A stretch of 54,940 nt of DNA from a virus: the IMG/VR virus record IMGVR_UViG_3300020452_000389, positions 1 to 54,940 of that record; one strand, given 5' to 3'. A program made the position numbers and the translations under genes. Below are positions 18,600 to 36,586 of the stretch, in pieces; position 1 is the first letter of the stretch; the number at the start of each line of letters is the position of its first letter. Under the pieces are notes generated by a model. The model made no database searches and was not told the origin of the DNA. It saw only the letters and a program-made list of their open reading frames with translations.

Positions 18600-21500
18600 A
18601 TGGCTGAAGTTAAAAATGCTTTTATAAAGTCCAAGATGAATAAAGACCTAGACGATAGGTTAATACCATCTGGAGAGTATCGCGATGCGCAAAATGTTCA
18701 GATAAGTAGATCAGAAAGTTCAGATGTAGGGGCATTAGAAAACGTATTAGGTAATAAAGAAGTATTATTTTCTAGTAATCAAGTTAGTTTTTCTACACTT
18801 GTAGGAGCACCAAATATAAAATGTATAGGTCAATTTGTTGATGAAAACAATACAACAATATATAGTTTTTGGACTGATTACTTTGATGTCCAAGCAGAAG
18901 ATAGAATAATTTATAGCTCAAGTGCTAAGAATTATATTTTATCCTATAATATTAATGGTAGTGATAATTATAAGGTTTTAGTTGAAGGTGCTTTTTTAAA
19001 TTTTTCTCAAACAAATCCCATCATTGGGGTTAACATTATAGAAGGTCTCTTGTTCTGGACAGATAATAGAAATCAACCTAGAAAAATAAATGTTAACTTA
19101 GCTAACACAGCTACAAACCCATCTAACACCTACGCAGTTCCTACTTATTATGCAGATGAAGATTCTATCTCCGTATCTAAATACAATCCTTATCAAACTA
19201 TAGAAGTTTTAAACGTTAGTTCTTTAGCAGCAGCAAATATTGTAACAGCTGATGTTAATGGTGCTGTTAATAATTCAAAAACTATTGTAATTGATGGTGT
19301 TACTGGAACAGTTGCTTTAGGATTAGGTGTTTCAGGAACAGGTGTAAAAAGCGGTACTATAGTAACTAAAATAAATAGTGCTACTAGCTTTGACACTAAT
19401 AAAGCTAATACTATAGCTGATAATACTGCTTTAACATTAAGAGGATTAGAAACAACAATGTATGATGTTACATCTGATAAGTTACCTGATGGCACTACTA
19501 ATAATCCTTATTACGACGCTAACTACGGGGGTGATCCACAGTTTTTAGAAGATAAATTTATAAGGTTTAGTTATAGATTTAAATTTGATGATGGTGAATA
19601 TTCTGTATTTGCTCCATTTACACAGTCAATGTTTATTCCTAAACAAGATGGTTATTTTAAAGGTGATGATGAAAAATTAACCTATGAAAGTACTATAGTA
19701 GATTTTATGGAAAATAAAGTTACTAAAATAGATTTACTTGTTCCACTTCCAGCTACAAGATCTGTTTTACAAAACATAGAAACTTCTCCAATAAAAATTA
19801 CTGAAATAGATATTTTATATAAAGAATCTGATGGCCAAGCTATAAGAGTTGTTGATACTATTAAAGTAGAAAATAACACACCATGGAACACTAATTCAAC
19901 AGATGATGTTTTTATATATACTTATGAATCTACAAAACCATATAAAACTTTACCTGAAAGTGAATTAGTTAGGGTTTATGATAGAGTACCTGTTAGAGCT
20001 AAATCTCAAGAGTTAATAAGTAATAGAGTGGTTTATGGAAACTTTCAAAACAAACACACGCCACCCGCTTCATTAAATTATCAAGTAGGTATTTCAGATA
20101 AATATGCTGATACTATAAGTTCTAGTAGTTATTCTACAACTGAATACCCTAATCACACTGTTAAACAAAACAGAAACTATCAAGTTGGTGTAGTATTATC
20201 TGATAAATTTGGTAGACAATCAACCACAATACTTTCTAATAATCAAGCAACACAACTTGTAAATGGATTTGGTGCTGATACAGTATATAGTCCTTATCGT
20301 ACAGCAACAGATACAGTCGCGCCAGAATGGCCAGGTGAATCTTTAAAAGTTTTATTTAATGAAACAATAAATAGTAATTCACCAGCTGTAGTAAGTAAAA
20401 CATTAGGCACACCAGGTTTATATAACTCGGATAAAACTAGTGCAAGCTATAACCCTTTAGGATGGTACTCGTATAAAATAGTTGTTAAACAACAAGAGCA
20501 AGAATACTATAATGTATATTTACCTGGAGTTATGAAAGGTAATCCAGATGCTACAAACACTGGTGGAGCATTATCAAATATTGTATTAATAAATGATAAT
20601 ATAAATAAAGTTCCTAGAGATCTTACTGAAGTTGGACCACAACAAAAACAATTTAGAAGTTCTGTACAATTATTTGGTAGAGTTCAAAATGATACTTTAG
20701 CCGCTTCTACAAGTGGTAATGAACAGTTTTATCCTGGAAGATTAAGTGATACAGTTAGTATAATTCAAGACCTAAGAGATTTATTTGATACTCCAGCTGC
20801 AACACCAATTGCTACAACAGTACCAATAAATGGATTTTATAATGCAAAATCTAATCCTTTAATAGGACAAGTAATAACAACTCAAGCATTTGGGGTGAAC
20901 AATACTTCTTCTCCCGGTCCTTATCCTACATTAGATAATTTAGCTATTTTTGAAACAGAACCTGAAGTTTCTAGATTAGATATATATTGGGAAACATCTA
21001 CTGCAGGTTTAATATCAGATTTAAACACAGCGGTAGCTACAGATACAGGTGGAGTACAAACAACAACAGGTTTTACTTTTTCATTAAACGAAGGTCAAGC
21101 AAGTGCTACAGCAGTAGCTGGTCCTTTCTATGGTGAAGATATAATTGGTGCAAGAATTGACAATGCAAGAATAGATGTAAATCCTGCAAATGGAAAATGG
21201 TCTGTTGTTAACAACTCTGGAACAAACATGACAAGTAGGTTTACATTAGTTGAAGCTGGGGCAGGTACAGGCATATCACCTTATGAATATACATTAAAAA
21301 CTAATGATACTTTTTATTACGGACCTAATGCAACAGTTATTGAAAACTATACATTTAGTTTTACATATGAAACAGGTGGTGTAGAAACAACACCTCCAGT
21401 TAAAACAGGTCAACTACAAAATATAGCTCCGACAATAGACGGAACTTGTCCTAGAAGTTTAACAATAACTTCTAATAATCTACCTACAATTACTACGTTA

Positions 21501-22670
21501 ACTGGTAAAAATGGATCAGCTGATACAACAAGAGATACTGATGATTTAACATGGTCAATAGTTTCTCAAACACAAAATTCATCTCCAGTTAATGTGTTTA
21601 CTATGACTACAACAAATAACCAAGGTGTATTAACCGCTCCAAGTGGTGCTGCAACTTATGTAGTTGTGGTTAAAGTAACAGACGCAGGTGGATTATCCTC
21701 ATCTAATTGTACTTTGAATATAACCATAGGTCAACCAGAGGTGAACAGTATATTTAATATATCTAGTATTGCGCCATTATATGATGGTGATGGGGTTAGA
21801 TATTATTTCACAAATAATTATACTAATTTAGATCAAGATATGGGCGCTATTAGTTCTAATTATATTTATGGAACTAGCTTAGTCAGTCCTGCTACACAAA
21901 ATACATCAAACAAATGTACTAACCCAGGAGAAATTGGTAACTATCAATTTACAAGAAAAAAATTATCAGGAGGATTAGGCGTAGGTGAAGGAGCTTTTTA
22001 CGTACAGTTTTTTGCTGACGCTCCTGTTACAACAATATCCACAACATCTCAAACTTTTAACCCTGTGTCTTTAACAGTAGAATATAGAGCAAGTTCTGCT
22101 TCAAACTGGAGTATGGCGGTTGATGTTGATGGTACAACTACTAATGCTAAAGCTCAATACAATACCGGTTTAACCAACGTTCCAGTTGGTGAATCAGGTT
22201 TTCAATCAGTGAGCGGAAATAATAATGAAGTAACATTAACTGGTAGCGTAAGTCAAACTTCAGGTATCAAAAGAGTTTTTGCTTTTGATTTACCAGGTGA
22301 ATATAGAATAACAATGGGTGCTTTAAATGGTCAAGTTTGTAACTATTCAAATTGTTCTGTTACAAAGAACCAATCAGCAACACAAGGTTTTATAGTAGGT
22401 GATTATAATTATGGTGGTGGAGTAAGCACTCCACAACAATATCAATACAATGTAGGTGGAACTACTTATTACGCTAAAGAACATATTACAAAATATGTCT
22501 CTCAACTATATACAGACTTAGCATTAACAACAACCGCTACGTTAGTAGCAGGGACATATACTTTCTTTAGACCGAATGTTAATTGGGAGTATACAAAAGA
22601 TGGATCTTACACCGCTAATTTCAACTCTTCGGGTCAAAGAACTAATGCCTCTAGTCTAGTATCTTATTAG
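18600..22670 (+). CDS. Nozzle/stabilisation protein, N-terminal part with Ig-like insert
   Basis: A 1356-residue protein. Its start, KSKMNKDLDDRLIPSGEYRD followed by DVGALENVLGN, is the recognisable opening of tail nozzle or stabilisation proteins of short-tailed phages. A region with VYGNFQKNHTPPA-like sequence (KNKHTPPASLNYQVG) lies near residue 485. From about 930 on the protein changes to Thr/Ser/Asn-rich beta modules, one with the cadherin/Ig-like ending VVVKVTDAGGLSSSNCTLNI. The stop is real, with several stops in all frames in the 30 bases before the next gene. The expected C-terminal half of the nozzle is found in the next gene, so this looks like a split protein. Confidence 0.65.
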   Translation: MAEVKNAFIKSKMNKDLDDRLIPSGEYRDAQNVQISRSESSDVGALENVLGNKEVLFSSNQVSFSTLVGAPNIKCIGQFVDENNTTIYSFWTDYFDVQAEDRIIYSSSAKNYILSYNINGSDNYKVLVEGAFLNFSQTNPIIGVNIIEGLLFWTDNRNQPRKINVNLANTATNPSNTYAVPTYYADEDSISVSKYNPYQTIEVLNVSSLAAANIVTADVNGAVNNSKTIVIDGVTGTVALGLGVSGTGVKSGTIVTKINSATSFDTNKANTIADNTALTLRGLETTMYDVTSDKLPDGTTNNPYYDANYGGDPQFLEDKFIRFSYRFKFDDGEYSVFAPFTQSMFIPKQDGYFKGDDEKLTYESTIVDFMENKVTKIDLLVPLPATRSVLQNIETSPIKITEIDILYKESDGQAIRVVDTIKVENNTPWNTNSTDDVFIYTYESTKPYKTLPESELVRVYDRVPVRAKSQELISNRVVYGNFQNKHTPPASLNYQVGISDKYADTISSSSYSTTEYPNHTVKQNRNYQVGVVLSDKFGRQSTTILSNNQATQLVNGFGADTVYSPYRTATDTVAPEWPGESLKVLFNETINSNSPAVVSKTLGTPGLYNSDKTSASYNPLGWYSYKIVVKQQEQEYYNVYLPGVMKGNPDATNTGGALSNIVLINDNINKVPRDLTEVGPQQKQFRSSVQLFGRVQNDTLAASTSGNEQFYPGRLSDTVSIIQDLRDLFDTPAATPIATTVPINGFYNAKSNPLIGQVITTQAFGVNNTSSPGPYPTLDNLAIFETEPEVSRLDIYWETSTAGLISDLNTAVATDTGGVQTTTGFTFSLNEGQASATAVAGPFYGEDIIGARIDNARIDVNPANGKWSVVNNSGTNMTSRFTLVEAGAGTGISPYEYTLKTNDTFYYGPNATVIENYTFSFTYETGGVETTPPVKTGQLQNIAPTIDGTCPRSLTITSNNLPTITTLTGKNGSADTTRDTDDLTWSIVSQTQNSSPVNVFTMTTTNNQGVLTAPSGAATYVVVVKVTDAGGLSSSNCTLNITIGQPEVNSIFNISSIAPLYDGDGVRYYFTNNYTNLDQDMGAISSNYIYGTSLVSPATQNTSNKCTNPGEIGNYQFTRKKLSGGLGVGEGAFYVQFFADAPVTTISTTSQTFNPVSLTVEYRASSASNWSMAVDVDGTTTNAKAQYNTGLTNVPVGESGFQSVSGNNNEVTLTGSVSQTSGIKRVFAFDLPGEYRITMGALNGQVCNYSNCSVTKNQSATQGFIVGDYNYGGGVSTPQQYQYNVGGTTYYAKEHITKYVSQLYTDLALTTTATLVAGTYTFFRPNVNWEYTKDGSYTANFNSSGQRTNASSLVSY

Positions 22671-22700
22671 TAATAAAATAAATAAATAAGTGATAATAAT

Positions 22701-24137
22701 ATGGGAGCTATTATAGAAGTAAAATACTTTAATTCTTTTCTTTTGAAAAAGACCTATAACAATGCTACAAGCGCGCCGGGGTGGAATGGTTCTTTTGGTA
22801 TACCTACTGGGGTTGCGGGTACTTATCCTGTATTTGCAACCAATCCTGCTGCAAACGCTAATAGTTGGGCTATAGAAGAAGCTAGAATAAGAGGTGGATA
22901 TAATAACACTAATGTAGATTATGGTGTTAAAGCTTATTTAGTAGAAGATGAACCTAATTCTTCTGTTAGATTTAATTCTATGATTTATTCTGGAGTTTTC
23001 AACTCACGAACAGGTGTAAACAACACTAATGAGTTTTCGGTTGGTACAGACATTACCAAATCAACAGATCCTATCAATGGTTCTATACAAAAATTATATG
23101 CTGAAGATACAGCGTTAATTATATTTCAACAAGATAAAGTAAGTAGAGCTCCAATAGATAAAGATATTATATACAATGCTGAGGGTGGTGGAAGTTTAAC
23201 AGCTTCTAATATGGTTATAGGTGATATAATACCTTTTGCAGGTGAATATGGAATTAGTAATAATCCAGAAAGTTTTGCAGTATATGGTTATAGAAAATAC
23301 TTTACTGATAAAAATAGAAATGCTGTTTTAAGATTATCTAAAGATGGTATAACAGAAATATCTAACTATGGAATGATTGATTATTTTAGAGATCAGTTTG
23401 GGTTGTTAGATAACTCTGTGTGGGGAGCTGGAAAAGCCATTGGCGCTTATGATATATATAACAAACAATATGTATTATCACTACAACAAAGTTCTAAAGC
23501 ACCGGATGGTCAAACAAACCCTAGCCCATCTACAGCTACATTAGCTTTTGATGAAAGAGTATTAGGTTGGACGAGTTTCTTTTCTTATATACCTGATCAA
23601 ATTATTAGTTTACAAAGCAACTATTATAGTTTTAAAGATGGTGGTTTATTTAAACATTATGATTTAACACAAAATAGAAATACATTTTATAATACAGCAT
23701 ATGACTCTTCTATAAAGTTTGTATTTAATCCTAGTGTAAGTTTATCTAAGGTATTTAAAACAGTTAACTATGAAGGTGGAAACGGTTGGGAAGTTAGTAA
23801 GTTTGAAGCAGCAAGATCTTTTGAACTAATTGACTCATGTAAACCAGTTTTAAGTTATAATGACGGGGCTTACGATTCTGCTACACCACCTAACACAGGT
23901 ACTGCAGCGGTAGTACAACCAATATTCCACGCAGGCTTTGTTAAAAAAGAAGGTAAATATTTTGCTAACTTAATAAACTCAAGTTCTGCAACAGCAGGTG
24001 AAGTTATCTTTGGTGCATCAATGACTGGTGTTAAAGGTTACTACGCAACTGTTACAATAGAATCAGACGCAACATCTAGAGTTAATCCTATGGAGTTGTT
24101 CGCTGTTTCATCTGACTACGTAGAGTCATCATATTAA
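22701..24137 (+). CDS. Nozzle/stabilisation protein, C-terminal part
   Basis: A 478-residue protein starting 30 bases after the previous stop. It contains INGSIQKLYAEDTALIIFQQ, then KVSRAPIDKDIIYNAEGGGS, then GEYGISNNPESFAVYGYRKY and LRLSKDGITEISNYGM. These are the propeller-like repeats that in related phages follow directly after the kind of N-terminal sequence found in the preceding gene. The two products probably assemble into one tail nozzle. The first 60 residues, before these repeats, are poorly ordered. A plain structural role as a second tail protein cannot be excluded. Confidence 0.65.
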   Translation: MGAIIEVKYFNSFLLKKTYNNATSAPGWNGSFGIPTGVAGTYPVFATNPAANANSWAIEEARIRGGYNNTNVDYGVKAYLVEDEPNSSVRFNSMIYSGVFNSRTGVNNTNEFSVGTDITKSTDPINGSIQKLYAEDTALIIFQQDKVSRAPIDKDIIYNAEGGGSLTASNMVIGDIIPFAGEYGISNNPESFAVYGYRKYFTDKNRNAVLRLSKDGITEISNYGMIDYFRDQFGLLDNSVWGAGKAIGAYDIYNKQYVLSLQQSSKAPDGQTNPSPSTATLAFDERVLGWTSFFSYIPDQIISLQSNYYSFKDGGLFKHYDLTQNRNTFYNTAYDSSIKFVFNPSVSLSKVFKTVNYEGGNGWEVSKFEAARSFELIDSCKPVLSYNDGAYDSATPPNTGTAAVVQPIFHAGFVKKEGKYFANLINSSSATAGEVIFGASMTGVKGYYATVTIESDATSRVNPMELFAVSSDYVESSY

Positions 24138-24147
24138 ATCAAATTAA

Positions 24148-24549
24148 ATGAATACAAGAACATTAACTGAGTCTGATTATTTAATATTATCAGACTGGTG
24201 GAAAGCATGGGGTTGGCCTGTGTTAGAAAAAGATCTTCTTCCAGACAACGGAACTGGAGGTATAATGATAGAAAATGAAGGTGAAAATATAGTAGCTGGA
24301 TTTTTATACTGGAGTAATTCTAAACTAGTATGGCTTGACTGGATCATATCAAACCCTGATGCAGATAAAAAAATACGCAAACAAGCTATAGAAATGTTAA
24401 TACTTACAGCAGAACAAATGATTAAAGATGCTGGTAGTAAATACATCATGTCAATAAGCAGAAGTAATAGCTTATTAAAAATACATGAAAAATTAGGGTG
24501 GAATATAGATAAAACTCCATCACACGAAATGATAAAAATTATAAATTAA
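24148..24549 (+). CDS. GNAT-fold acetyltransferase-like protein
   Basis: A 133-residue protein with the GNAT layout: a helical RTLTESDYLILSDWWKAWGW start, a central beta segment IVAGFLYWSNSKLVWLDWII, then a helix after a NPDADKKIRKQAI turn, and the late SNSLLKIHEKLGW helix that in GNATs follows the acetyl-CoA loop. The canonical R/Q-x-x-G-x-G/A loop is not clear; the equivalent is SNPDADKKIR. Such proteins recur in tail clusters of podoviruses and may be structural rather than catalytic. It might equally modify a host target. Confidence 0.6.
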   Translation: MNTRTLTESDYLILSDWWKAWGWPVLEKDLLPDNGTGGIMIENEGENIVAGFLYWSNSKLVWLDWIISNPDADKKIRKQAIEMLILTAEQMIKDAGSKYIMSISRSNSLLKIHEKLGWNIDKTPSHEMIKIIN

Positions 24550-24560
24550 AACTAAAGTAT

Positions 24561-25331
24561 ATGGCAATAGCAACAGCAACACTTGTAACCGTAGGTGCGG
24601 TAGCGGCAGGAACAGCAGCAACAGCTGCCGTTGTTGGAGGTGCAGTACAATCAGGCCAAGAGCACAAAGCTATGGTTAATGCAAGAAACGCAAAAGAAAT
24701 AGCAGCAGCGAAAGTAAAATCACTACAAGACGGTAGACAAACCATACTCAATCCTTACGCAGGAGTAAGTGATCTATCTAGTATGGCGAAAGATTTAAGT
24801 AGTATGATGAGTAATCCTTTTGAAAGCTTAGGTGTTGCTACACAGGCTGCTGAAATACAAGCAGAAGAAGCTGATATATCTTTAGCTAACACATTAGATA
24901 TGTTAAGAGCTACAGGTGCCAGTGCAGGTGGAGCTACAGCTTTAGCACAAGCAGCATTAGCTAGTAAGAAAGGAGTGAGTGCAAGCATAGAGCAACAAGA
25001 AGCTCAAAACGAAAGATTAAGAGCTCAAGGTGAACAAAACTTAATACAAGCACAAGTAGCAGAGCAACAAAGATTACAAAGTGTTGCTATAACAGAAGGG
25101 CAAAGAGTACAACAAGCACAAGCTCAAGGAGAATTATTTAAATTCCAAGCTAAAGAAGATAGGCAAAATTCAGATATTGCTTACAACATATCTAAAGAAA
25201 CAGGCGCTGCTCAAAGACAAGACGCAGCAAGGCAACGTAGGGATAACGCTACTGCTGGTATATTTACTGGTGTTGGTAATGTTGCAAGTGGTGTAGCAAG
25301 TGCCGCGTTTACTGGAGCTATGGGAAAATAG
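24561..25331 (+). CDS. Ejection-type internal virion protein, likely extended by frameshift
   Basis: The zero-frame product has 256 residues. It begins with an Ala/Gly/Val hydrophobic segment (residues 6-30) and contains DMLRATGASAGGATALAQAA, then a long Gln/Ala/Glu/Arg helix (residues 145-225), and ends near a second glycine-rich hydrophobic patch. This is the composition of small internal head proteins that line or cross membranes during DNA ejection (T7 gp14 is an analogy only). It precedes two further internal proteins. The stop TAG at 25329 lies directly after a GGGAAAA slippery heptamer, and the -1 frame stays open for 36 more codons to the edge of the next gene. The longer form may be the main product. 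Confidence 0.75.
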   Translation: MAIATATLVTVGAVAAGTAATAAVVGGAVQSGQEHKAMVNARNAKEIAAAKVKSLQDGRQTILNPYAGVSDLSSMAKDLSSMMSNPFESLGVATQAAEIQAEEADISLANTLDMLRATGASAGGATALAQAALASKKGVSASIEQQEAQNERLRAQGEQNLIQAQVAEQQRLQSVAITEGQRVQQAQAQGELFKFQAKEDRQNSDIAYNISKETGAAQRQDAARQRRDNATAGIFTGVGNVASGVASAAFTGAMGK

Positions 25332-25438
25332 GAGCCGGGGGCGGCAATAATACTCCAACAGGTCATGGCGGAACTTATAAACAATATAAAGCTGGAGGAG
25401 GAAAAGGAGATAGAAAATTTTTTAGATCAATAAGATAA
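25322..25438 (+). other. Candidate -1 ribosomal frameshift site and trans-frame tail
   Basis: GGGAAAA (25322-25328) is in the exact X XXY YYZ phase: zero-frame codons are ATG GGA AAA TAG. A shift of -1 on AAA continues with ATA GGA GCC at 25328 and runs to TAA 25436-25438, four bases before the next ATG. The tail would be 36 residues, rich in Gly, Lys and Arg, with TGHGGTYKQYKAGG and KFFRSIR. Directly downstream is GGAGCCGGGGGCGGC, strikingly GC-rich for this genome and able to fold. An assembly indel in the A run is the main alternative. Confidence 0.6.
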
Positions 25439-25442
25439 TAAT

Positions 25443-27101
25443 ATGGGATATAAAATACCAGGTGCAGATTACACATCACCTGCTCAATTACAAACAAACG
25501 TTGGAGCTGAGGTAGGTAAAAGTTTAGGAAACGTTTTTGCTCAATTCGGACAACAGTTAAGGCAAGCTAACGAGCAAGCTAAAAAAACTGCTGCAGTAGA
25601 AGGTCAAATTAAAGATACTATAAGGATAAATTATAGTAAATCTGTTAATAAAATTCTTAGTGCTGGTAAAGAACAGTTTGGTGATGATCAAGTTTTATAT
25701 AACGAATGGAAATCAACAGTTATTGAAAAAGGTGAAGAAGCAACTCAAGCTCAAATAGATTTTCAATTTGGAGAATTAGATGCTAAACAGAAAAAAGAAA
25801 AGTTAGATATAGTTGGAGGATTTGAAACATGGTTAGCCGAAAGTAAACAAAACTACGGTAGATTTTTAACTGACGTAACTGACATGAATACAGATGGTAT
25901 GCGAATTGTAGGTGACACAACAAATGGTGAGCAACAGTTGAATCAAATAATTTTAACCGCAAATAGTGGTGGAAATGCAGTTTCTCTTTTTGGTGATGGA
26001 GCTACAATGACAAGATCATTAAGTGGAAATAATAAAGAAATTATAAATACTACTGTAAGAATACCCGTTAACTCAGAAACAATAAAAACATTAAACAGCA
26101 AAAGCGGTGGCACATCAAATAATGTGTTTGAGCAAGGTGTATTAGATGGGATAATAAAAAAGGTAGATGATGGTACTGGAAAAGAATATTATGAATTTAA
26201 AAAAAATATAGATACAAGTAGATATGGTTCGGGCCAACATGATTTTGTGATACCTGTAGAAACAGCAATGAAACCAGGTGAAACGTTTAAAGAGTTAGGA
26301 TTAGTTGATGATAAAATGACTATACAACCAAATTTATATGCTAAAACAGCTAGTGGAGATCCTGCAATTTATACAACCACTTCTAGTGAAAACGCTCCAC
26401 CAGGAAAAGAAAGAACAACAACGTCTGAAATTATTAACATAGCTCAAATAAGAGGTAACGAGGCTTTACGTGTACAAATTAATTCTGAAGTTGATGGTAT
26501 ATTATTAGACAGTAGAAATACTGATGCAAAATTAGCTAGTTTCAGTGCTTACGGTATAGAAAGTTTAGATAATTTTAAAGATCTAAAATATGATAAAGAA
26601 GAAAATCCTAACGGTTATAAAAGCTTAAGAGAGTTTTTAGATAAAGCAGATGCTAATGTAGTTAAAACTTTTACCGACAATGTAGTTACACAAACTTTGT
26701 TTGATGGTTTATTTAACAAAACAGATGGTTCTGGTAATAGAACTTATACACAAATGTCAGCTGATAAGAAGATGGTTAATTTTTTAAATAAAAATAACAT
26801 ACTAAATGAGGCTGGTGAAGCATATAAAACTGGTGATGTTGTTTATGTTAAAAATAAAGTAACAGAACAAGACAAAGAGAGTGGTGAAGGAAATGTATAT
26901 CAAAATATTTTAAATCAATTAAACGCTCCAGATGCAAATCCAGCATCAATTCTTTCTTCTCCAATTCAAATTCCAAAAGGTAACAAAATAGGTTATGACG
27001 CAATTTCAGGAGAATATGTTATTTATGGAAGTGATGGTACACCAGGTGATATAACTTTAACGCTTGACGAGGTTAAAATGCAATTACAAAGAGGAATTTA
27101 A
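25443..27101 (+). CDS. Second internal virion (ejection) protein candidate
   Basis: A 552-residue protein. The first 60 residues are helical (VGKSLGNVFAQFGQQLRQAN onward), followed by a mixed-charge middle with many Lys, Asn and Asp, and a late beta segment (KIGYDAISGEYVIYGSDG). No catalytic motif is seen. The position between the ejection-type protein and the giant protein, and the helical opening, suggest one of the internal core proteins of a short-tailed phage. The role is inferred from neighbours. Confidence 0.6.
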   Translation: MGYKIPGADYTSPAQLQTNVGAEVGKSLGNVFAQFGQQLRQANEQAKKTAAVEGQIKDTIRINYSKSVNKILSAGKEQFGDDQVLYNEWKSTVIEKGEEATQAQIDFQFGELDAKQKKEKLDIVGGFETWLAESKQNYGRFLTDVTDMNTDGMRIVGDTTNGEQQLNQIILTANSGGNAVSLFGDGATMTRSLSGNNKEIINTTVRIPVNSETIKTLNSKSGGTSNNVFEQGVLDGIIKKVDDGTGKEYYEFKKNIDTSRYGSGQHDFVIPVETAMKPGETFKELGLVDDKMTIQPNLYAKTASGDPAIYTTTSSENAPPGKERTTTSEIINIAQIRGNEALRVQINSEVDGILLDSRNTDAKLASFSAYGIESLDNFKDLKYDKEENPNGYKSLREFLDKADANVVKTFTDNVVTQTLFDGLFNKTDGSGNRTYTQMSADKKMVNFLNKNNILNEAGEAYKTGDVVYVKNKVTEQDKESGEGNVYQNILNQLNAPDANPASILSSPIQIPKGNKIGYDAISGEYVIYGSDGTPGDITLTLDEVKMQLQRGI

Positions 27102-27115
27102 TAAAATAATAATAT

Positions 27116-30100
27116 ATGGAAGTATATATAGTAGACGGTAGAGAACTTACTTTAGAACAGTTCGAAGCTTTAGCAAAAGAAGCTGGTTTGAGTACCGAAA
27201 AATATAAAGCTTTATACAACGTAGAAGTAAAGCAAGACCCCAATGCTCTGGATGCGGCTGCGGGAGAGGACAAAGCATCCTGGGAATCACAATTGGCAAA
27301 TTTACGATCGGAATACAGAAAAACTTGGGGAGATAAATTTTGGATGCCAGAAGATACTCCTGACGTTACTTCAGGAAGAGGTGAAATGCGAAAGCGTGAA
27401 GTAAAAAGAATTGAATTTACTAAAGCCGAGAAAGAGTTAGTTAATAAAATTAAATCTTACAATGAAAATCCAAATAATATAGATTTTGCTGATTGGCAAA
27501 CTGTTATTAATCAAGGTGAAGATGCTATTAAGTCATATTTAGCTCAGGAATTTCCTTTTTTAAGAGCAAAAGATGGCACTATAGGTAACGCTATAAAAGT
27601 ACAATTAGCTAACGGAGAATTTAAAGAAATTGATTTAAAACCTATATTTAGTGGTCAAAAAAAACAAGCTATAGAGGTTATAAAAGAAATAAACGCAACT
27701 AAAGAAGAATATAATAATAGAGAAATTATTCAAGCTAATATGAATAATTTAGCGGGTAGTATAGAAAGATCTGGTAATGTTAACGCTGTTAACGCTTTGT
27801 TAAAAGACAATACTCCTTATCAACTTGAACAAATAACAGAAAAATACGATGAATTTGCAGCATCTGATATTAAATCATACAATGTATATAAAAATGGGGA
27901 GCTTATAAGCACTCAATTACCTATAACTAAGGTTGATGATTTTTTAAGGGAAAATATTACAAAGGTAGAGTTTGATAATATGGTTACAACTTCTGTAAAA
28001 GCTATAGATGAAATGGCTGCTTTACAAAGAGCTTATATAGAAAGAGAATCTCAAGTTATAGAAGAAAAACCAGAAACTAAAGTAAAGTATTATAAAAAAA
28101 ATTATCAAAACGATGTATTGGATTTGGTAAAATCTTTAGGGGATTTTAGCCAAGAAGAATTAGACGAAATAGAAGCATACATAACAAGAACTCAAAGACA
28201 ACAATTTCCAACTGGAACATTGACGTCTAGAGGATATATTCCTAATACAAATACAGGTTTATCACCTGATGAAATAATAAGACAACTTACATCTTTAGAA
28301 GGTTTATCTGCGGATATTAAAAACAAGTTGGTACAACGAGGTTTTATTAATGAAATGAAAGAAAAAGTTTCTAATGGTATAAGCAACATTGCATTACAAG
28401 AAGCTAAAGAAGGTTCTAAAACTTTATTACAAAACGCTCTTACTGATATAGATAAAAACTATTTATTAGATTTAGCAAATTATCATAATGATAATACGTT
28501 AAATAAAAGAAAAAAAATAAATTTAGAAAATTTAGGTGGTCTTGAAAATGATGACACTAAAGAATTACTTACAATAGCAGGATCAATTAAAGGTACTGAT
28601 CTTGTATTGAGAAAAAGAAATTTTGAAAAAGATAATAAAAACGCAGTAAAAGCTTGGGAGGATTTTTATAATCCAAAACTTGAAACAATACAAAAAGAAT
28701 TTGCAAATTTACTTAATCAACTACCACCAACAGTTAGTGTAGAAAGTAGTGAAACACCCTCAGGACCTTTATTTAAAATAGATAGTACAAAAGATTTAGG
28801 TGATACTGAAAACAAAAGAGTAAATAATTTAATAAATAAAATTACGGCTTTACAAAGTACATATCATAACTTAGTATTTGACGCTAATAAATCTAAAGAA
28901 AAAATTATAAACAATTATAGCGCTTTTAATGCTCAATTGGCAGAGTATACTAAAAGCGATTATATAATAGACGAAGCTAATAAAGAATATGGTTTATTTA
29001 ATTTAGTTACTAAAGATGTTAATGATGCTTTTTCTCAATTGTTTTTAACTGTACCTACTTTGCTTAATTCAGATTGGGCTATTAGAAGAGAGAAACAGTT
29101 AAAAGATAAAAACAATTATTATAAAGAAATGGTTGATCCAGAGTTTAGTTTAGAATATATAACTAGAACTTTAGGTCAACAGTCAGCTAATATTACTATG
29201 GCTATAGGAATAGCTGGGTTAGGTTCAATACCTGCTTTAGGTTTAAGTGATATTGCTATTAGTAATGCAATAGGGGTTAGCTTTGGTTTAAGCTCTGGTA
29301 CTCAAACTTTTAGAGATTTAAGTATTCAAAGAGATGCTGCTGAAGAAGCGAAGCTACTAGCAGTCAGATATAAAGAAGCATTTGATGCTGGTGAAATAAG
29401 TGAGTACAACTACACTATAGCTATGAGAGATATAAATACTACTATAGCTATGGGTAAGTTAGATGATAATCAAATATTAAACGCATCTATTGCTAATGGT
29501 ATAATAGAGGGAACACTTACTAAATACATAGGTACAGCTTCAAACAGTATAGCTTTAGTTAAAAACTTTACTCAAGTTGATCGAGCTACTATTGCAAAAA
29601 CTTTATTCCAAGGTAATCCTACAAAATTTTATGAATTTATAGGTAAACCTTTAGTCACTAGAACAGGATTAGAGGTTGTAGAAGAAGAACTTATATTTGG
29701 TGGTCAACAGTTTGTTACTGAAGCTGGTATTTTAGGTAGAGATATAGATAGAGAAAAGTTTTTAAAAGGAGCTAATGATACTTTTTGGGCCACAGTGGTT
29801 ACCGCGGGTATGTCACAATCTACCGGTATAGTTTACAGCGGTATGAACGCTTATGGTATAACAAAAAAATATGAAAAAGTTATAAACAAAAGCAAGCTTG
29901 TTTTAAACGATATATCAGCATCTATACAAAACCTTGCGAAAGGAGATGAAGGGACAAAAAATAGTTTACTGCTTGGTATGTTTGAGGAATTAAAATCTAT
30001 GGGATTAGCTATTGATCAAAATTCTATAGATCTTTTAAACTTAAGTAAAGAAAATAAAAACGGAGAGTCTGATTTAAAAACATTAATAGGAACACAATTA

Positions 30101-33100
30101 GTTAAGCAAGATTATTTAAGAAGTTTAGGTATTGAAGGTGGAACAAAAGCAGAACAAGAATCAGCTTTAGAAGCGTACAAAGCTACGCTAACTGAAGGTC
30201 AATTAAAAAATTTAAATGATACATTAAATGCTTTTGATACTCAAATAAATAATATAAAAGAAAAAGCTAGTAAAGCTTCTAACTACGATGTAGCAAAAGA
30301 AGCGTTAGGTAATATTTATACTATTTATGATGAATCGCTTAAAAATGATACAGAATATAAAGCTGCTAACACACAAGGTAAACTTGTAAAAATAATAAAC
30401 GCTTTAAGAGAGGACATGCGTCTACAGAATATTGAAAACGCTAAATCAAATCCTTCCATTGTTGAACAAGTAGAGAATATGCCGTTTGCTCCATTTACAA
30501 AAGAAGGAGCTGAACAACAAAGAGATAAAATTTATGAGAAGCTTGGTAATGAAATGGCTTTACAAGAAAGTAGAGGATTTAGTACTCAATTAAATGTAAA
30601 TAGACAGGCTAGTTTATTAATAGGTGGTGATTTAAAATCAGTTAATGTTGTAAGTTATAAAAATGATGAAGAGCTTAAAGATAGATTAGAAGCTGTTGGC
30701 TTAAAGAAAGGTAGTCCGGATTTTATGGAAGCTTTTAATAAGCTAAAACAAGGAAAAGTTTTTGGGCTTGTGTTTGGTAAAACTATTATAACACAAAATG
30801 AAGATGCTGTAAAAGCAGATCTTGAAGCTGGAGTTATTAGAGCTGGTACAGTTGTGTTACATGAACTTACACATATTATTAAAGATGCTCAAATGAAATC
30901 TCCTGAATCAAAAAAGAAATATTTTGATAATCTATTTTTAGCAGCATCGACAAGTAATAATTTAGCGTTAAAAAGTATACATGATCAGACCGTGAATATG
31001 ATGAATAGATTATACGGTGATAAAGAAGGTGAAAATAAATTAAAATGGCAAGATGAATATACTATATTCTTGCAAGAGCAATTGTATGCTTATGAAGATT
31101 TTGTTCAAATAGAAACAGATGATAGCTTTCTTACAAAAATATTTAATAGAACAAACCCAGCTAATTTAAATACACCTGAAAAAGCTTTAAATTATTTAGC
31201 AGCTAGCAATGCTGCTTTTAGAAGAGGTAAAATTTCTAGATCTACAAAAAAAGCTGTAGAACGTTTTGAAGGAACCAACATCAAAGAATCTGGTAGAGAT
31301 ATAAATGATTTAGCTAGAGATTATAAAACTTTACCTGTTGATCAAAGAGCTAGTTTTTTATTAGACACTGATTTTTATAGACAATACCTTAACACTTCTT
31401 TAGCGGCAATGGGCTTTAATATTAACAAAGGTGATATAGCTACTGAACAAGCAGAAGGTTTTGCTGTTGATGCTTTTGATAGAGTAACAAAAAGTTATAA
31501 ACCAGAAGATGGTTCGTTTACTAACTGGATATATTCAACTGTGGGTAGAGAAGGTAGAGCTAAAATAGGAGAGGAAATAGAAAGAAAGAAAAAGTTAGTA
31601 CGTCAAAGTCAAGCTCAAGAACAAACTAGATTAGTTGCTAAAGAAACCGCAGAAGACGCTGTAAGCTTAGAAGAAAGAAAAAAAGCAGAAGGTACAGGTA
31701 GAACACTAGTAGATCCTAGAAAATTACCAGGAGTACCTTCAAACATTGACAATATAGTAGAAATAAATAAAGACGATGTTGTAATAAATCCTGAATCAAG
31801 ATCTTATACAACAGATTTTAGAAGTATATCAGATCAATATGGTCCTAAGGTAGCAGGTGAAATTTATGGTATAAACCCTAGTAAACTTAAAAAAGGTGCT
31901 GATCTTACATATGGTCAGAATAAAGTAGTTGATGGTAGAAAAGTAAGTTCTGAAGCTGAAAAAATACAAAGCGAGTTTACCAATGCTCAAAACGTTAAGA
32001 AGTTTATTTCTTTATTTCCTGAATTTAATATAAGTACACCTACAGCTGTAACTACACAACAAGGTCAAGAAACTAAAGTTGATAAAGATGTGCAGGGTAG
32101 ATCATTAGGTATTGCCCCTAGTGTACAAAACTATTTTTATGAAAATTACGTTGACCCTAGATCTTTAAATAAAGAAACTAAAAAAGATGCTATAACAAAT
32201 CCTAAAGGAAGATCTAAAGGTACTACTAGTCAAACGCAAGTAAAAAGATTAAAGCCTGAATTTAGAGGCACCATATCTAATGAGACTATTAAAAAGCTAC
32301 AGAATGATTTAGGTATAACTGCAAAAGGTGAATTTAACGTTCCACCAAAAGGTAAAGCAAGAACTGAGTTTGGTAGACTACTTATAGGTTTAGCAAACTT
32401 AAAAGGTGCTATTGTAGCTAATACTGTTGTAGATCAAAAGATACAATCACTTATTAAGAAAGGTGAAATTAAATCTGTTAGAACTCCAGAACAAATCACA
32501 GCAAGCACAAGAGCTGGTAGAAGTAAAATACAGTATAGTGAAAAAGCTCCTTCTGAGTATGTTGTTTCTTTAATGCAAAAACTAAGGGTGTTAAATAAAG
32601 AAAGCGGTACTAAAAAAGCTACACGAGAAGGTGAATTTTTAACTAGAGGTATACAGCAAACAAGACTAAGTGACGGTACAGAAAAAACTATAATAGATAG
32701 AGATAAATATTTATCTGATGAAGTTGCTGCGTTTAAAGGAGAAATGTTTTTAGAAGGTATGACAAGGGTGATAAATGATTTCTTAAAAACATATCCTGAA
32801 TTTAGAAACTTTTTTAAACAGGCTACTGTGTTTGGAATGGATAGATCTGCGTTTGGTGTTGCACCGCTTTATAATAAAAATATTTCTACTACTAAAAGTA
32901 AACAAGCTAATGTTAACAGAGAGTCAATGACTTCTAATAAAAAGTTAACAAACGCTTATGTAAATGAAATTGAAAACAATACAAAAAGTTATGTAGCTAA
33001 ACAAAAAGATAAAATACAAGTGCTATATGATTTTGCTAAAGCAGTTGAATCTTATTTAGAACAAGAGACTGAAGTAGAAATAGATGGTAAAATTAAAAAA

Positions 33101-36100
33101 GTAAAAGCTAATAAAAAAAATGCATGGGTATTTGATGAAATTAGAGCTGAAGCAACTAACTCTCAACAATCTCCATTTAGAACATTATTCCCTGTTTATT
33201 TAGTTGAAGTAGATTTTCAAGGTAAACCACTCAGAAATGTTAAAGGTACAGAAGAGCATTCAACTCCTCAAAACCAAATAGGAACGTTGTTAATTCAAGC
33301 TGCAATTGATCAGAAAGTAGATGAAGTTTTTCCTATTGTAAAAGCTTTAGCTATGCAAGGTTGGTTATCAGATGATGTAGATAATAAGCTTAACGAAGAT
33401 TATAGTAAATCTATGCCTTACAATTTGCTTAAAACAGGTATAGAGCTTTACAACAAAGGTGAATTAAAATTACCTGATGGTACTTTAGCTGCTATAAGAA
33501 TGAGTGAATCAGATGTTGATCTTAGTTTTCAAATGTATATTCCAACAGGTCAAACTTTATCTCAAATATTTTTTGGCACTGAAGATGTTAAACTAGTAGA
33601 TCAAAAACAATTAATGAGAGACTTGTTTAGCGGAAAAAGAACTCAAGCAGAAGTAAAACAAGAAGCTAAAAGATTAGTTAAAATACAACAAAAAGTAGAT
33701 GAAACTTTTAAACCTGAAGCACCTGTAGCTATAGATAGAAACAATACGGCTGATAAAGCTATGGCTGATGCTAGAAACAGTGTTAAATATAAAGAGTCTA
33801 GAAAAGGTATTAGTGTGTTTGATTTTGATGATACACTAGCTCAATCAAATAGTAAAGTTCTTTACACTATGCCTGATGGAACAACAGGTTCTCTTACGGC
33901 AGGTGAATTTGCATTAGAAGCATCGGGGTTAACTGAGTTAGGTGCTGAGTTTGATTTCAGTGAATTTAACGAAGTTAAAGAAGGTAGAAAAGGTCCATTA
34001 GCAGATCTTGCTTTAAGACGTCAAGAAAAATTTGGCAGCCAAGATATATTTGTATTAACAGCTAGGCCTCAAGCGTCAGCTATAAATATTAAACAATTTT
34101 TAGATGAAATTGGTTTAAATATACCTTTAGCAAATATAACTGGTTTAGCTGATGGAAGACCAGAAGCTAAAGCTAATTGGATGATTGAGAAATATGCTGA
34201 TGGTTATAATGATTTTTATTTTGCAGATGATGCTTTTAAAAATGTAGAAGCAGTTCAAAATGTATTTGATGTATTAGATGTTAAATCTAAAGTGCAACAA
34301 GCAAGGGTTAAGTTTAGCGAAAAACTAGATAAAGATTTTAACGACATGATCGAAAGAAACATGGGCGTTCCATCTGAAGCAACATACTCAGATATTGTTG
34401 CAAGAAGAATGGGTAAAAATCAAAAAAGATTTGCATTTTTTATTCCACCTTCAGCAGATGACTTTAGAGGTTTAACAATGTACACATTTGCTGGTAAAGG
34501 GAAGCAAGGTGAAGCTGATCAAGAGTTTTTTAATAAAGCATTAATAAAACCTTATATGGCTGGTGTTAACGCTATGAACTTGTCTAAAAATAGAGTTAAA
34601 AACGCTTATAAAGTTTTACAACAAACTAGTCCTGAAGTTAGAAAAAAATTAAACAAAAAAATTGGTGGTACTAAATACACTCATGATGCAGCTATAAGAA
34701 TTTATTTATGGAGTAAAGATGGAACTAAAATACCAGGTTTATCTAAACGAGACCAGGAACAAATAGTAAAATTAGTAGAAGCTGATACAGATTTAGTAGC
34801 TTATGCTGAAGGAGTAAAACTAATTACTAAACAAGATGTTTATCTTCCACCATCTGAATTTTGGGATGGTACTACTATAATAGGAGATTTATCTAAATTA
34901 ACTAAAGATGTTAAAAGAGAAGAGTATTTAAAAGATTTTTCGCGTAACGTTGATATTATATTTAGTCCTAAAAATTTAAATAAAGTAGAAGCTATTTATG
35001 GTTTTAGAGTAAGAGAAGCTTTAGAAAATATTATATACCGAATGAAAACAGGTAGTAATAGAAAGGCTGGTGCTGATAGAATTGTAACAGCATGGAATGA
35101 TTGGACTAACAGATCTGTTGGTGCTATAATGTTCTTTAATAGAAGATCAGCATTGTTACAGATGTTATCTGCTGGTAACTTTGTTAATTGGTCAGATAAT
35201 AATCCATTAAAAGCAGCGGCTGCATTTGCCAATCAACCTCAATACTGGAAAGATGTAGTTTATCTTTTTAATTCTCCTAAATTAAAAGCTAGAAGATCTG
35301 GTTTAGAAGGAGACATTAATGAAGCAGAAATAGCACAAGCTTCTAAAAAAGGTGGTATGGAAGGTGTGTTATCTTATTTATTAAAAATAGGTTTTACACC
35401 TACTCAAATAGCAGATAGTATAGCTATATCTACAGGTGGTGCATCGTTTTATAGAAATAGAATTAACACATATAAAAAACAAGGATATACCACTGAAGAC
35501 GCAGAGAAAAAAGCTTTTGAGGATTTTTCAGCTATATCAGATGAGACACAACAGTCAGCAGATCCAATGTTAATATCTATGCAACAAGCAGGTACTATGG
35601 GTAGATTAGTATTAGCATTTCAAAACACGCCAATGCAGTATACTCGTTTAATGAAAAAAGCTGGTCAAGATATTATAAATGGAAGAGGAGATTTTAAAAC
35701 TAATTTTTCTAAAATATTATATTACGGGTTTATACAAAACTTAATTTTCTCTACATTACAAAATGCTATGTTTGCTTTATTACCTGGATTTGAAGATGAA
35801 GAAGAACCTGATTTTAAAACAGATAAAGAAAAGGAAGAGTGGTTAGCTAAACAAGATAACAAAATGGACAATAAAACAACTAGAGTAGTTAACAACATGT
35901 TAGATACTTTACTAAGAGGATCTGGTTTAGCTGGAGCTGTTGTTGCTACAACTAAAAATGTTATCATGGAATATAACGATCGTCAAGATATGACTATTTT
36001 AGAAAAATCTAGAAACAACGCTGACTTATTAATAGCTTTATCTAGTATATCACCTCCAATAAGTTCTAAGTTAAGAAAAATAAATAATGCTTTAAATCTT

Positions 36101-36586
36101 GAAGACTTTGAAAGAGATATAATAGCAGAAAGAGGTTTTAGTGTTACTATTGATGGTAAGTTTCAGTTAAGCCCACAATACCAAGTTGTAGGTGAGGTTG
36201 CTTCTGGTTTATTTAATTTACCTTTAGATAGGGTATTTAACGAGGTTAATTCTATTACAGAAGCTTTAGATGAAAGGAATAGTGCTTACCAAAGAATAGC
36301 ACTAGCGTTAGGTTGGAAAACGTGGGATGTAGGAGCTAAGATTGAAGAGCATGAATTAATAAAAACCCTAGCAAAAGAGAAAAGAAAAAAGGAAGGAATA
36401 GAAAAAGGAAAGCAAACTAGAAAAACTAATAAAGAATTAGAAAAAGAGCACGAAAGACTTAGAAGAAGTATTATATTTAAACTACCTAAACCCATAAAAG
36501 ATAGTTTAATAAAAAAAGAAAGAGAAGACAAAAAGATAACTGCAATTTATAAGTTAAATCAATTGAAAGCTAAATACTTAGAATAA
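27116..36586 (+). CDS. Giant polyvalent virion protein with zincin, sigma-2-like and HAD domains
   Basis: This 3156-residue protein is the largest gene of the window and is probably carried in the head and injected. Visible parts in order are a helical start, a hydrophobic Gly/Ala-rich segment at about 685-720, and a zinc metalloprotease motif HELTH at 1249-1253. A stretch at about 1440-1490 reads like sigma-70 region 2 (FDRVTKSYKPEDGSFTNWIY). Further on is a HAD-type phosphatase with DFDDT at 2236-2240, Thr2315 in VLTARP and FADDAFKN near 2370. The C-terminal part has NTPMQYTRLMKKAG near 2838, a membrane-like segment at about 2866-2892 and a basic Lys/Glu helix at the end. This mix of toxin-like and enzymatic modules matches the polyvalent protein concept described for phage and mobile-element giants. 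Which domains are active is unknown. Confidence 0.8.
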   Translation: MEVYIVDGRELTLEQFEALAKEAGLSTEKYKALYNVEVKQDPNALDAAAGEDKASWESQLANLRSEYRKTWGDKFWMPEDTPDVTSGRGEMRKREVKRIEFTKAEKELVNKIKSYNENPNNIDFADWQTVINQGEDAIKSYLAQEFPFLRAKDGTIGNAIKVQLANGEFKEIDLKPIFSGQKKQAIEVIKEINATKEEYNNREIIQANMNNLAGSIERSGNVNAVNALLKDNTPYQLEQITEKYDEFAASDIKSYNVYKNGELISTQLPITKVDDFLRENITKVEFDNMVTTSVKAIDEMAALQRAYIERESQVIEEKPETKVKYYKKNYQNDVLDLVKSLGDFSQEELDEIEAYITRTQRQQFPTGTLTSRGYIPNTNTGLSPDEIIRQLTSLEGLSADIKNKLVQRGFINEMKEKVSNGISNIALQEAKEGSKTLLQNALTDIDKNYLLDLANYHNDNTLNKRKKINLENLGGLENDDTKELLTIAGSIKGTDLVLRKRNFEKDNKNAVKAWEDFYNPKLETIQKEFANLLNQLPPTVSVESSETPSGPLFKIDSTKDLGDTENKRVNNLINKITALQSTYHNLVFDANKSKEKIINNYSAFNAQLAEYTKSDYIIDEANKEYGLFNLVTKDVNDAFSQLFLTVPTLLNSDWAIRREKQLKDKNNYYKEMVDPEFSLEYITRTLGQQSANITMAIGIAGLGSIPALGLSDIAISNAIGVSFGLSSGTQTFRDLSIQRDAAEEAKLLAVRYKEAFDAGEISEYNYTIAMRDINTTIAMGKLDDNQILNASIANGIIEGTLTKYIGTASNSIALVKNFTQVDRATIAKTLFQGNPTKFYEFIGKPLVTRTGLEVVEEELIFGGQQFVTEAGILGRDIDREKFLKGANDTFWATVVTAGMSQSTGIVYSGMNAYGITKKYEKVINKSKLVLNDISASIQNLAKGDEGTKNSLLLGMFEELKSMGLAIDQNSIDLLNLSKENKNGESDLKTLIGTQLVKQDYLRSLGIEGGTKAEQESALEAYKATLTEGQLKNLNDTLNAFDTQINNIKEKASKASNYDVAKEALGNIYTIYDESLKNDTEYKAANTQGKLVKIINALREDMRLQNIENAKSNPSIVEQVENMPFAPFTKEGAEQQRDKIYEKLGNEMALQESRGFSTQLNVNRQASLLIGGDLKSVNVVSYKNDEELKDRLEAVGLKKGSPDFMEAFNKLKQGKVFGLVFGKTIITQNEDAVKADLEAGVIRAGTVVLHELTHIIKDAQMKSPESKKKYFDNLFLAASTSNNLALKSIHDQTVNMMNRLYGDKEGENKLKWQDEYTIFLQEQLYAYEDFVQIETDDSFLTKIFNRTNPANLNTPEKALNYLAASNAAFRRGKISRSTKKAVERFEGTNIKESGRDINDLARDYKTLPVDQRASFLLDTDFYRQYLNTSLAAMGFNINKGDIATEQAEGFAVDAFDRVTKSYKPEDGSFTNWIYSTVGREGRAKIGEEIERKKKLVRQSQAQEQTRLVAKETAEDAVSLEERKKAEGTGRTLVDPRKLPGVPSNIDNIVEINKDDVVINPESRSYTTDFRSISDQYGPKVAGEIYGINPSKLKKGADLTYGQNKVVDGRKVSSEAEKIQSEFTNAQNVKKFISLFPEFNISTPTAVTTQQGQETKVDKDVQGRSLGIAPSVQNYFYENYVDPRSLNKETKKDAITNPKGRSKGTTSQTQVKRLKPEFRGTISNETIKKLQNDLGITAKGEFNVPPKGKARTEFGRLLIGLANLKGAIVANTVVDQKIQSLIKKGEIKSVRTPEQITASTRAGRSKIQYSEKAPSEYVVSLMQKLRVLNKESGTKKATREGEFLTRGIQQTRLSDGTEKTIIDRDKYLSDEVAAFKGEMFLEGMTRVINDFLKTYPEFRNFFKQATVFGMDRSAFGVAPLYNKNISTTKSKQANVNRESMTSNKKLTNAYVNEIENNTKSYVAKQKDKIQVLYDFAKAVESYLEQETEVEIDGKIKKVKANKKNAWVFDEIRAEATNSQQSPFRTLFPVYLVEVDFQGKPLRNVKGTEEHSTPQNQIGTLLIQAAIDQKVDEVFPIVKALAMQGWLSDDVDNKLNEDYSKSMPYNLLKTGIELYNKGELKLPDGTLAAIRMSESDVDLSFQMYIPTGQTLSQIFFGTEDVKLVDQKQLMRDLFSGKRTQAEVKQEAKRLVKIQQKVDETFKPEAPVAIDRNNTADKAMADARNSVKYKESRKGISVFDFDDTLAQSNSKVLYTMPDGTTGSLTAGEFALEASGLTELGAEFDFSEFNEVKEGRKGPLADLALRRQEKFGSQDIFVLTARPQASAINIKQFLDEIGLNIPLANITGLADGRPEAKANWMIEKYADGYNDFYFADDAFKNVEAVQNVFDVLDVKSKVQQARVKFSEKLDKDFNDMIERNMGVPSEATYSDIVARRMGKNQKRFAFFIPPSADDFRGLTMYTFAGKGKQGEADQEFFNKALIKPYMAGVNAMNLSKNRVKNAYKVLQQTSPEVRKKLNKKIGGTKYTHDAAIRIYLWSKDGTKIPGLSKRDQEQIVKLVEADTDLVAYAEGVKLITKQDVYLPPSEFWDGTTIIGDLSKLTKDVKREEYLKDFSRNVDIIFSPKNLNKVEAIYGFRVREALENIIYRMKTGSNRKAGADRIVTAWNDWTNRSVGAIMFFNRRSALLQMLSAGNFVNWSDNNPLKAAAAFANQPQYWKDVVYLFNSPKLKARRSGLEGDINEAEIAQASKKGGMEGVLSYLLKIGFTPTQIADSIAISTGGASFYRNRINTYKKQGYTTEDAEKKAFEDFSAISDETQQSADPMLISMQQAGTMGRLVLAFQNTPMQYTRLMKKAGQDIINGRGDFKTNFSKILYYGFIQNLIFSTLQNAMFALLPGFEDEEEPDFKTDKEKEEWLAKQDNKMDNKTTRVVNNMLDTLLRGSGLAGAVVATTKNVIMEYNDRQDMTILEKSRNNADLLIALSSISPPISSKLRKINNALNLEDFERDIIAERGFSVTIDGKFQLSPQYQVVGEVASGLFNLPLDRVFNEVNSITEALDERNSAYQRIALALGWKTWDVGAKIEEHELIKTLAKEKRKKEGIEKGKQTRKTNKELEKEHERLRRSIIFKLPKPIKDSLIKKEREDKKITAIYKLNQLKAKYLE

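Follow-up and report, generated by a model that had tools for sequence, protein, structure and literature searches.

Does a gene for a small, putative internal virion protein, found in a family of viruses that infect marine Bacteroidota, end at its stop codon, or do some ribosomes slip at that point and add a short tail? We investigated this question in a stretch of viral DNA of 54,940 nucleotides (IMG/VR record IMGVR_UViG_3300020452_000389), hereafter the window. An earlier note, made from the sequence alone, had proposed a programmed -1 frameshift in an ejection-type virion gene, yielding a long and a short protein in a fixed ratio. Comparison with homologues supports programmed frameshifting, which very probably occurs although it rests on sequence evidence alone, while the fixed ratio and the identity of the gene are inferred.

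A slippery heptamer lies flush with the stop codon

The gene at 24561-25331 (plus strand, as are the heptamer, hairpin, tail and the two genes that follow) encodes a 0-frame product of 256 aa and ends with ATG_GGA_AAA_TAG. The heptamer GGGAAAA (25322-25328) is therefore in X_XXY_YYZ phase, directly followed by the TAG stop (25329-25331). In the -1 frame, the sequence reads GGG AAA ATA GGA and remains open for 36 tail codons (25328-25435) up to a TAA at 25436-25438, 4 nt before the next ATG at 25443. The tail, IGAGGGNNTPTGHGGTYKQYKAGGGKGDRKFFRSIR, is Gly/Lys/Arg-rich with a net charge of +6. The GC-rich block behind the site folds as a hairpin with a spacer of 5 nt, formed by GCCG (25334-25337), a GGGG loop and CGGC (25342-25345). 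The earlier note was thus correct on the heptamer, its phase, the open -1 frame and the GC-rich sequence behind it.

Taken alone, however, the window provides only marginal evidence. The hairpin is no better than shuffled sequences (z -0.42, with 60 of 200 shuffles as good), an open tail of this length has a P of about 0.05, and the 0-frame read-through frame is also open for 33 codons. With homologues, the arrangement is clearly more than chance.

The arrangement recurs in 29 of 188 homologues

We scanned viral contigs with seven proteins of the family and with a divergent homologue (L240; such labels denote individual homologues), and also scanned bacterial genomes. After removing duplicates, this gave a first set of 139 genes and then 49 further ones. 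Among these 188 non-redundant homologues, 29 carry a frameshift arrangement, with a -1 tail of about 24-60 codons: 24 in the first set and 5 in the set fetched after the rule had been framed (L340, L388, L391, L393 and L454). L388 lies on a contig of a Bacteroidetes genome bin. The heptamers are GGGAAAG (14), GGGAAAT (3), GGGAAAA (2), GGGAAAC (2), AAAAAAG (3) and GGGTTTC/T (3), and two members are irregular (L166 with TTTGGGG, and L065 with no canonical heptamer). Overall, 28 of the 29 have a heptamer at or within 9 nt of the stop.

Among 478 other gene ends on the same contigs, none has GGGAAAN, which is carried by 21 of the 29 members. A chance origin is thus contradicted. A-run heptamers are common in these AT-rich genomes (77 A/T-type heptamer matches over the 478 ends), so that the AAAAAAG members weigh less than the GGGAAAN ones. 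We also considered a sequencing or assembly error in the G/A run, as homopolymers are error-prone and the gene spacing looks like that of one continuous gene ending at the -1 stop. The same transition is nevertheless found in 29 divergent homologues from different metagenomes, nearly always at a slippery site and with a hairpin that an in-frame gene would not need. This recurrence rules out a one-off error and makes the error explanation very unlikely.

The remaining 159 homologues lack the arrangement. The earlier note had listed homologues without any such tail as evidence that would refute its reading, but their distribution on the tree (see below) reflects patchy gain and loss rather than disproof.

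Hairpins behind the heptamer score higher than codon usage explains

We next examined structures behind the heptamer in the 25 frameshift-type genes of the first set, which at this stage included L280, a gene with a 15-codon tail that is left out of the count above. Of these, 20 have a perfect stem of 4-7 bp starting 2-7 nt behind the heptamer, with loops of 3-7 nt and stem sequences that differ widely. The mean hairpin score, a measure of our own design, was 10.4 against 3.7 in 114 control genes (P 2e-8) and 5.3 in shuffles (P 2e-4). Dinucleotide shuffles of 45 nt gave a mean z of -1.0 in frameshift genes and +0.15 in controls, and GC content just behind the site was 59% against 22% in controls. 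As tails begin Gly/Ala/Pro-rich, which by itself raises GC, we redrew synonymous codons from the usage of the same region: 0 of 400 redraws (6.4 +/- 1.0) reached the observed mean. Some members lack a clear hairpin (L036, L213 and L065). In L240, L391 and L393, the GGGTTTY heptamer lies 9 nt before the stop and is followed after 5 nt by a GGGG-TAG-CCCC hairpin with the stop in its loop. L240 scored no hairpin when anchored at the stop, and its arrangement was read by eye, while L391 and L393 did score one once anchored at the heptamer.

These features fit what is known of -1 signals. In E. coli, G_GGA_AAG and A_AAA_AAG are among the three most efficient -1 motifs, and stimulatory structures generally start 5-8 nt downstream, as in the IS3-family signals that produce transposase fusions in insertion sequences (PMC4066793). 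The window, however, has GGGAAAA rather than GGGAAAG, a one-base variant of the form in its near relatives.

The -1 tail is under purifying selection

The tails behave as coding sequence in the -1 frame. Median open length after the stop is 32 codons in -1, 7.5 in read-through and 6 in +1. The -1 stop lies a median of 13 nt before the next ATG, close to the stop of tail-less relatives (14 nt), while the 0-frame stop lies 110 nt before it. Most -1 frames hold no start codon near the junction. Gene callers thus cut these proteins about 100 nt short. Across aligned tail pairs, changes by codon position are 63/39/85, with pN 0.195 against pS 0.450 (pooled pN/pS 0.43; Fisher 1e-10). Two pairs do not show this pattern (L036/L213, 1.44; L011/L169, 1.16), and the codon alignment was made in the -1 frame, which favors that frame somewhat in divergent pairs. 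The three well-aligned pairs, L061/L067, L003/L281 and L166/L065, give 12/3/28.

Read-through of the stop is an alternative to a -1 shift. TAG is indeed enriched as the 0-frame stop of frameshift-type genes (19/25 against 12/114 others) in a family that otherwise uses TAA, and the read-through frame of the window is open. However, this frame closes early in the family, selection acts in the -1 frame, and the heptamer is kept, even where it lies 9 nt before the stop. Read-through is therefore very unlikely. The shift could also be mainly regulatory, with ribosomes that shift terminating next to the following gene and coupling or tuning its translation, since the -1 stop lies 4-31 nt before the next ATG in nearly all members, the usual gene spacing. 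However, tail-less relatives simply end next to the following gene, tails are under purifying selection, and homologous tails recur on divergent cores. We consider a mainly regulatory role unlikely.

Altogether, the best explanation is standard tandem tRNA slippage at G_GGA_AAN stimulated by a simple hairpin. In the window, most ribosomes would stop at TAG and make the 256-aa form. A minority, paused by the hairpin while GGA and AAA occupy the P and A sites, would slip back one base (GGA to GGG, AAA to AAA) and add 36 residues, giving a 292-aa form with a predicted junction of ...GAMGKIGAGGGNNTPTGHGG... The efficiency of the shift and the presence of the long form in virions are inferred. The tail is usually a Gly/Ser/Thr/Asn/Pro-rich linker ending in a short conserved stretch, and we infer that it may be a docking peptide carried by only a few copies of the protein in the ejection complex.

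The gene probably encodes a gp14-like internal virion protein

Relatives of the terminase and portal are flavobacterial podoviruses: elemo phages, Cellulophaga phi38:1, and Maribacter and Tenacibaculum phages. The portal is 33% identical to that of phi38:1 and 41% to those of elemo phages, and the virion gene order matches that of phi38:1-type podoviruses (Pervagoviridae and kin). The genes correspond by position to phi38:1 gp98-gp99-gp100-gp101, all annotated as structural by similarity, and to the elemo phages, where the counterpart is annotated as a structural protein. The upstream 133-aa gene (24148-24549; phrog_17252, function unknown) is related to gp98. The gene under study is followed by a 552-aa virion gene (25443-27101), in the position of gp100 but with no sequence match to it, and by a giant virion gene of 3156 aa (27116-36586), in the position of gp101 and elemo gp18. 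Protein sizes are 256-552-3156 aa here and 200-549-1691 aa in phi38:1. The giant ORF contains a weak polynucleotide-kinase-like stretch at residues 2225-2412 (phrog_415, E 1e-5) and has no Pfam or NCBIfam hit. Further upstream (18600-24137), two adjacent genes of 1356 and 478 aa both match phrog_14478, best at profile positions 189-333 and 918-1261, as if one virion protein of relatives were split in two here.

Sequence searches gave little support for the identity of the gene itself. Homologues occur in hundreds of viral contigs, but no relative of the window protein was found by sequence in named phage genomes, so that isolates could be compared only by gene order. Pfam, PHROGs and NCBIfam gave nothing for the window protein, and T7_gp14 (PF24072) matched the homologue L061 only below the cut-off (E 0.021). 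Profile comparison was suggestive with gp99 (probability 83%) and negative with elemo. A sequence search of solved structures returned only a designed repeat protein (E 0.077). The predicted structure is a chain of long helices (pLDDT 72), for which the best viral fold match in BFVD is an 'Internal virion protein' (E 2.6e-4), while PDB matches are generic helical bundles. An internal virion (ejection) protein is therefore the likely, but not proven, identity. It resembles T7 gp14-type proteins in its position before two larger virion genes; the long-helix model and the weak fold and N-terminal matches do not decide the matter, and there is no significant family hit.

Phage frameshifts described in the literature that was open to searching affect other genes. 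A review lists tail chaperones, T7/T3 and Listeria coat proteins, and A2 head and Listeria major tail proteins (PMC5009743). In T7/T3 gene 10A/10B, a -1 shift near the end of a virion gene also gives a minor C-terminally extended form, but of the major capsid protein, whereas the gene described here is in the internal virion protein position and its tails look exchanged between divergent cores. In lambda gpG/gpGT, a -1 shift with a ratio of 30:1 (PMC5009743) concerns an assembly chaperone of long tails that is absent from virions; no such tail is present here. The kuravirus-like phage YF01 carries GGGAAAG near the stop of a podovirus virion gene and makes a -1 extended isoform, but in the capsid gene, with an extension of several hundred residues and in a different host group (PMC9965538). 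In the literature that was open to searching, which left out most subscription papers, we found no frameshift in an internal virion or ejection gene. A conserved one would mean that ejection complexes may need two subunit forms in a set ratio. The 29 signals, with different stems and heptamers, also form a natural series for the study of -1 frameshifting in Bacteroidota.

The cassette is scattered across the family

We then mapped the arrangement on a core tree of the 139 genes of the first set. The label needs at least 16 changes, 10 of them forced by well supported branches, and is clustered relative to shuffles. The window's own clade holds L001, L003 and L006 with the cassette and L002 and L004 without. 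L003 and L281 have cores 49% identical but tails 86% identical, and L166 and L065 have values of 57% and 87%. Their following proteins do not match (for L003/L281, BLAST returned no hit), and linkage of the tail to the following gene was not consistent. The heptamer, hairpin and tail are thus distributed as if gained, lost or exchanged as a unit. One tentative possibility is that this compact recoding cassette acts as an exchangeable C-terminal module of phage ejection proteins, alternating with no tail or with in-frame C-terminal modules, so as to place a docking peptide on only a minority of subunits.

We also searched for in-frame homologues of the tail. L247 resembles the window tail only at chance level (21 of 500 shuffles as good), and the similarity of L054 to L011/L281 is suggestive but is one of thousands of comparisons. 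Annotated isolates leave no room for a tail, as the phi38:1 and elemo genes end at the next start. Other relatives end without a tail or carry in-frame C-termini. One such in-frame module, found in L275, L063, L303 and L181 and recurring on divergent cores, resembles the Peptidase_S74 endosialidase chaperone domain (E 0.0003-0.012, below Pfam's cut-off).
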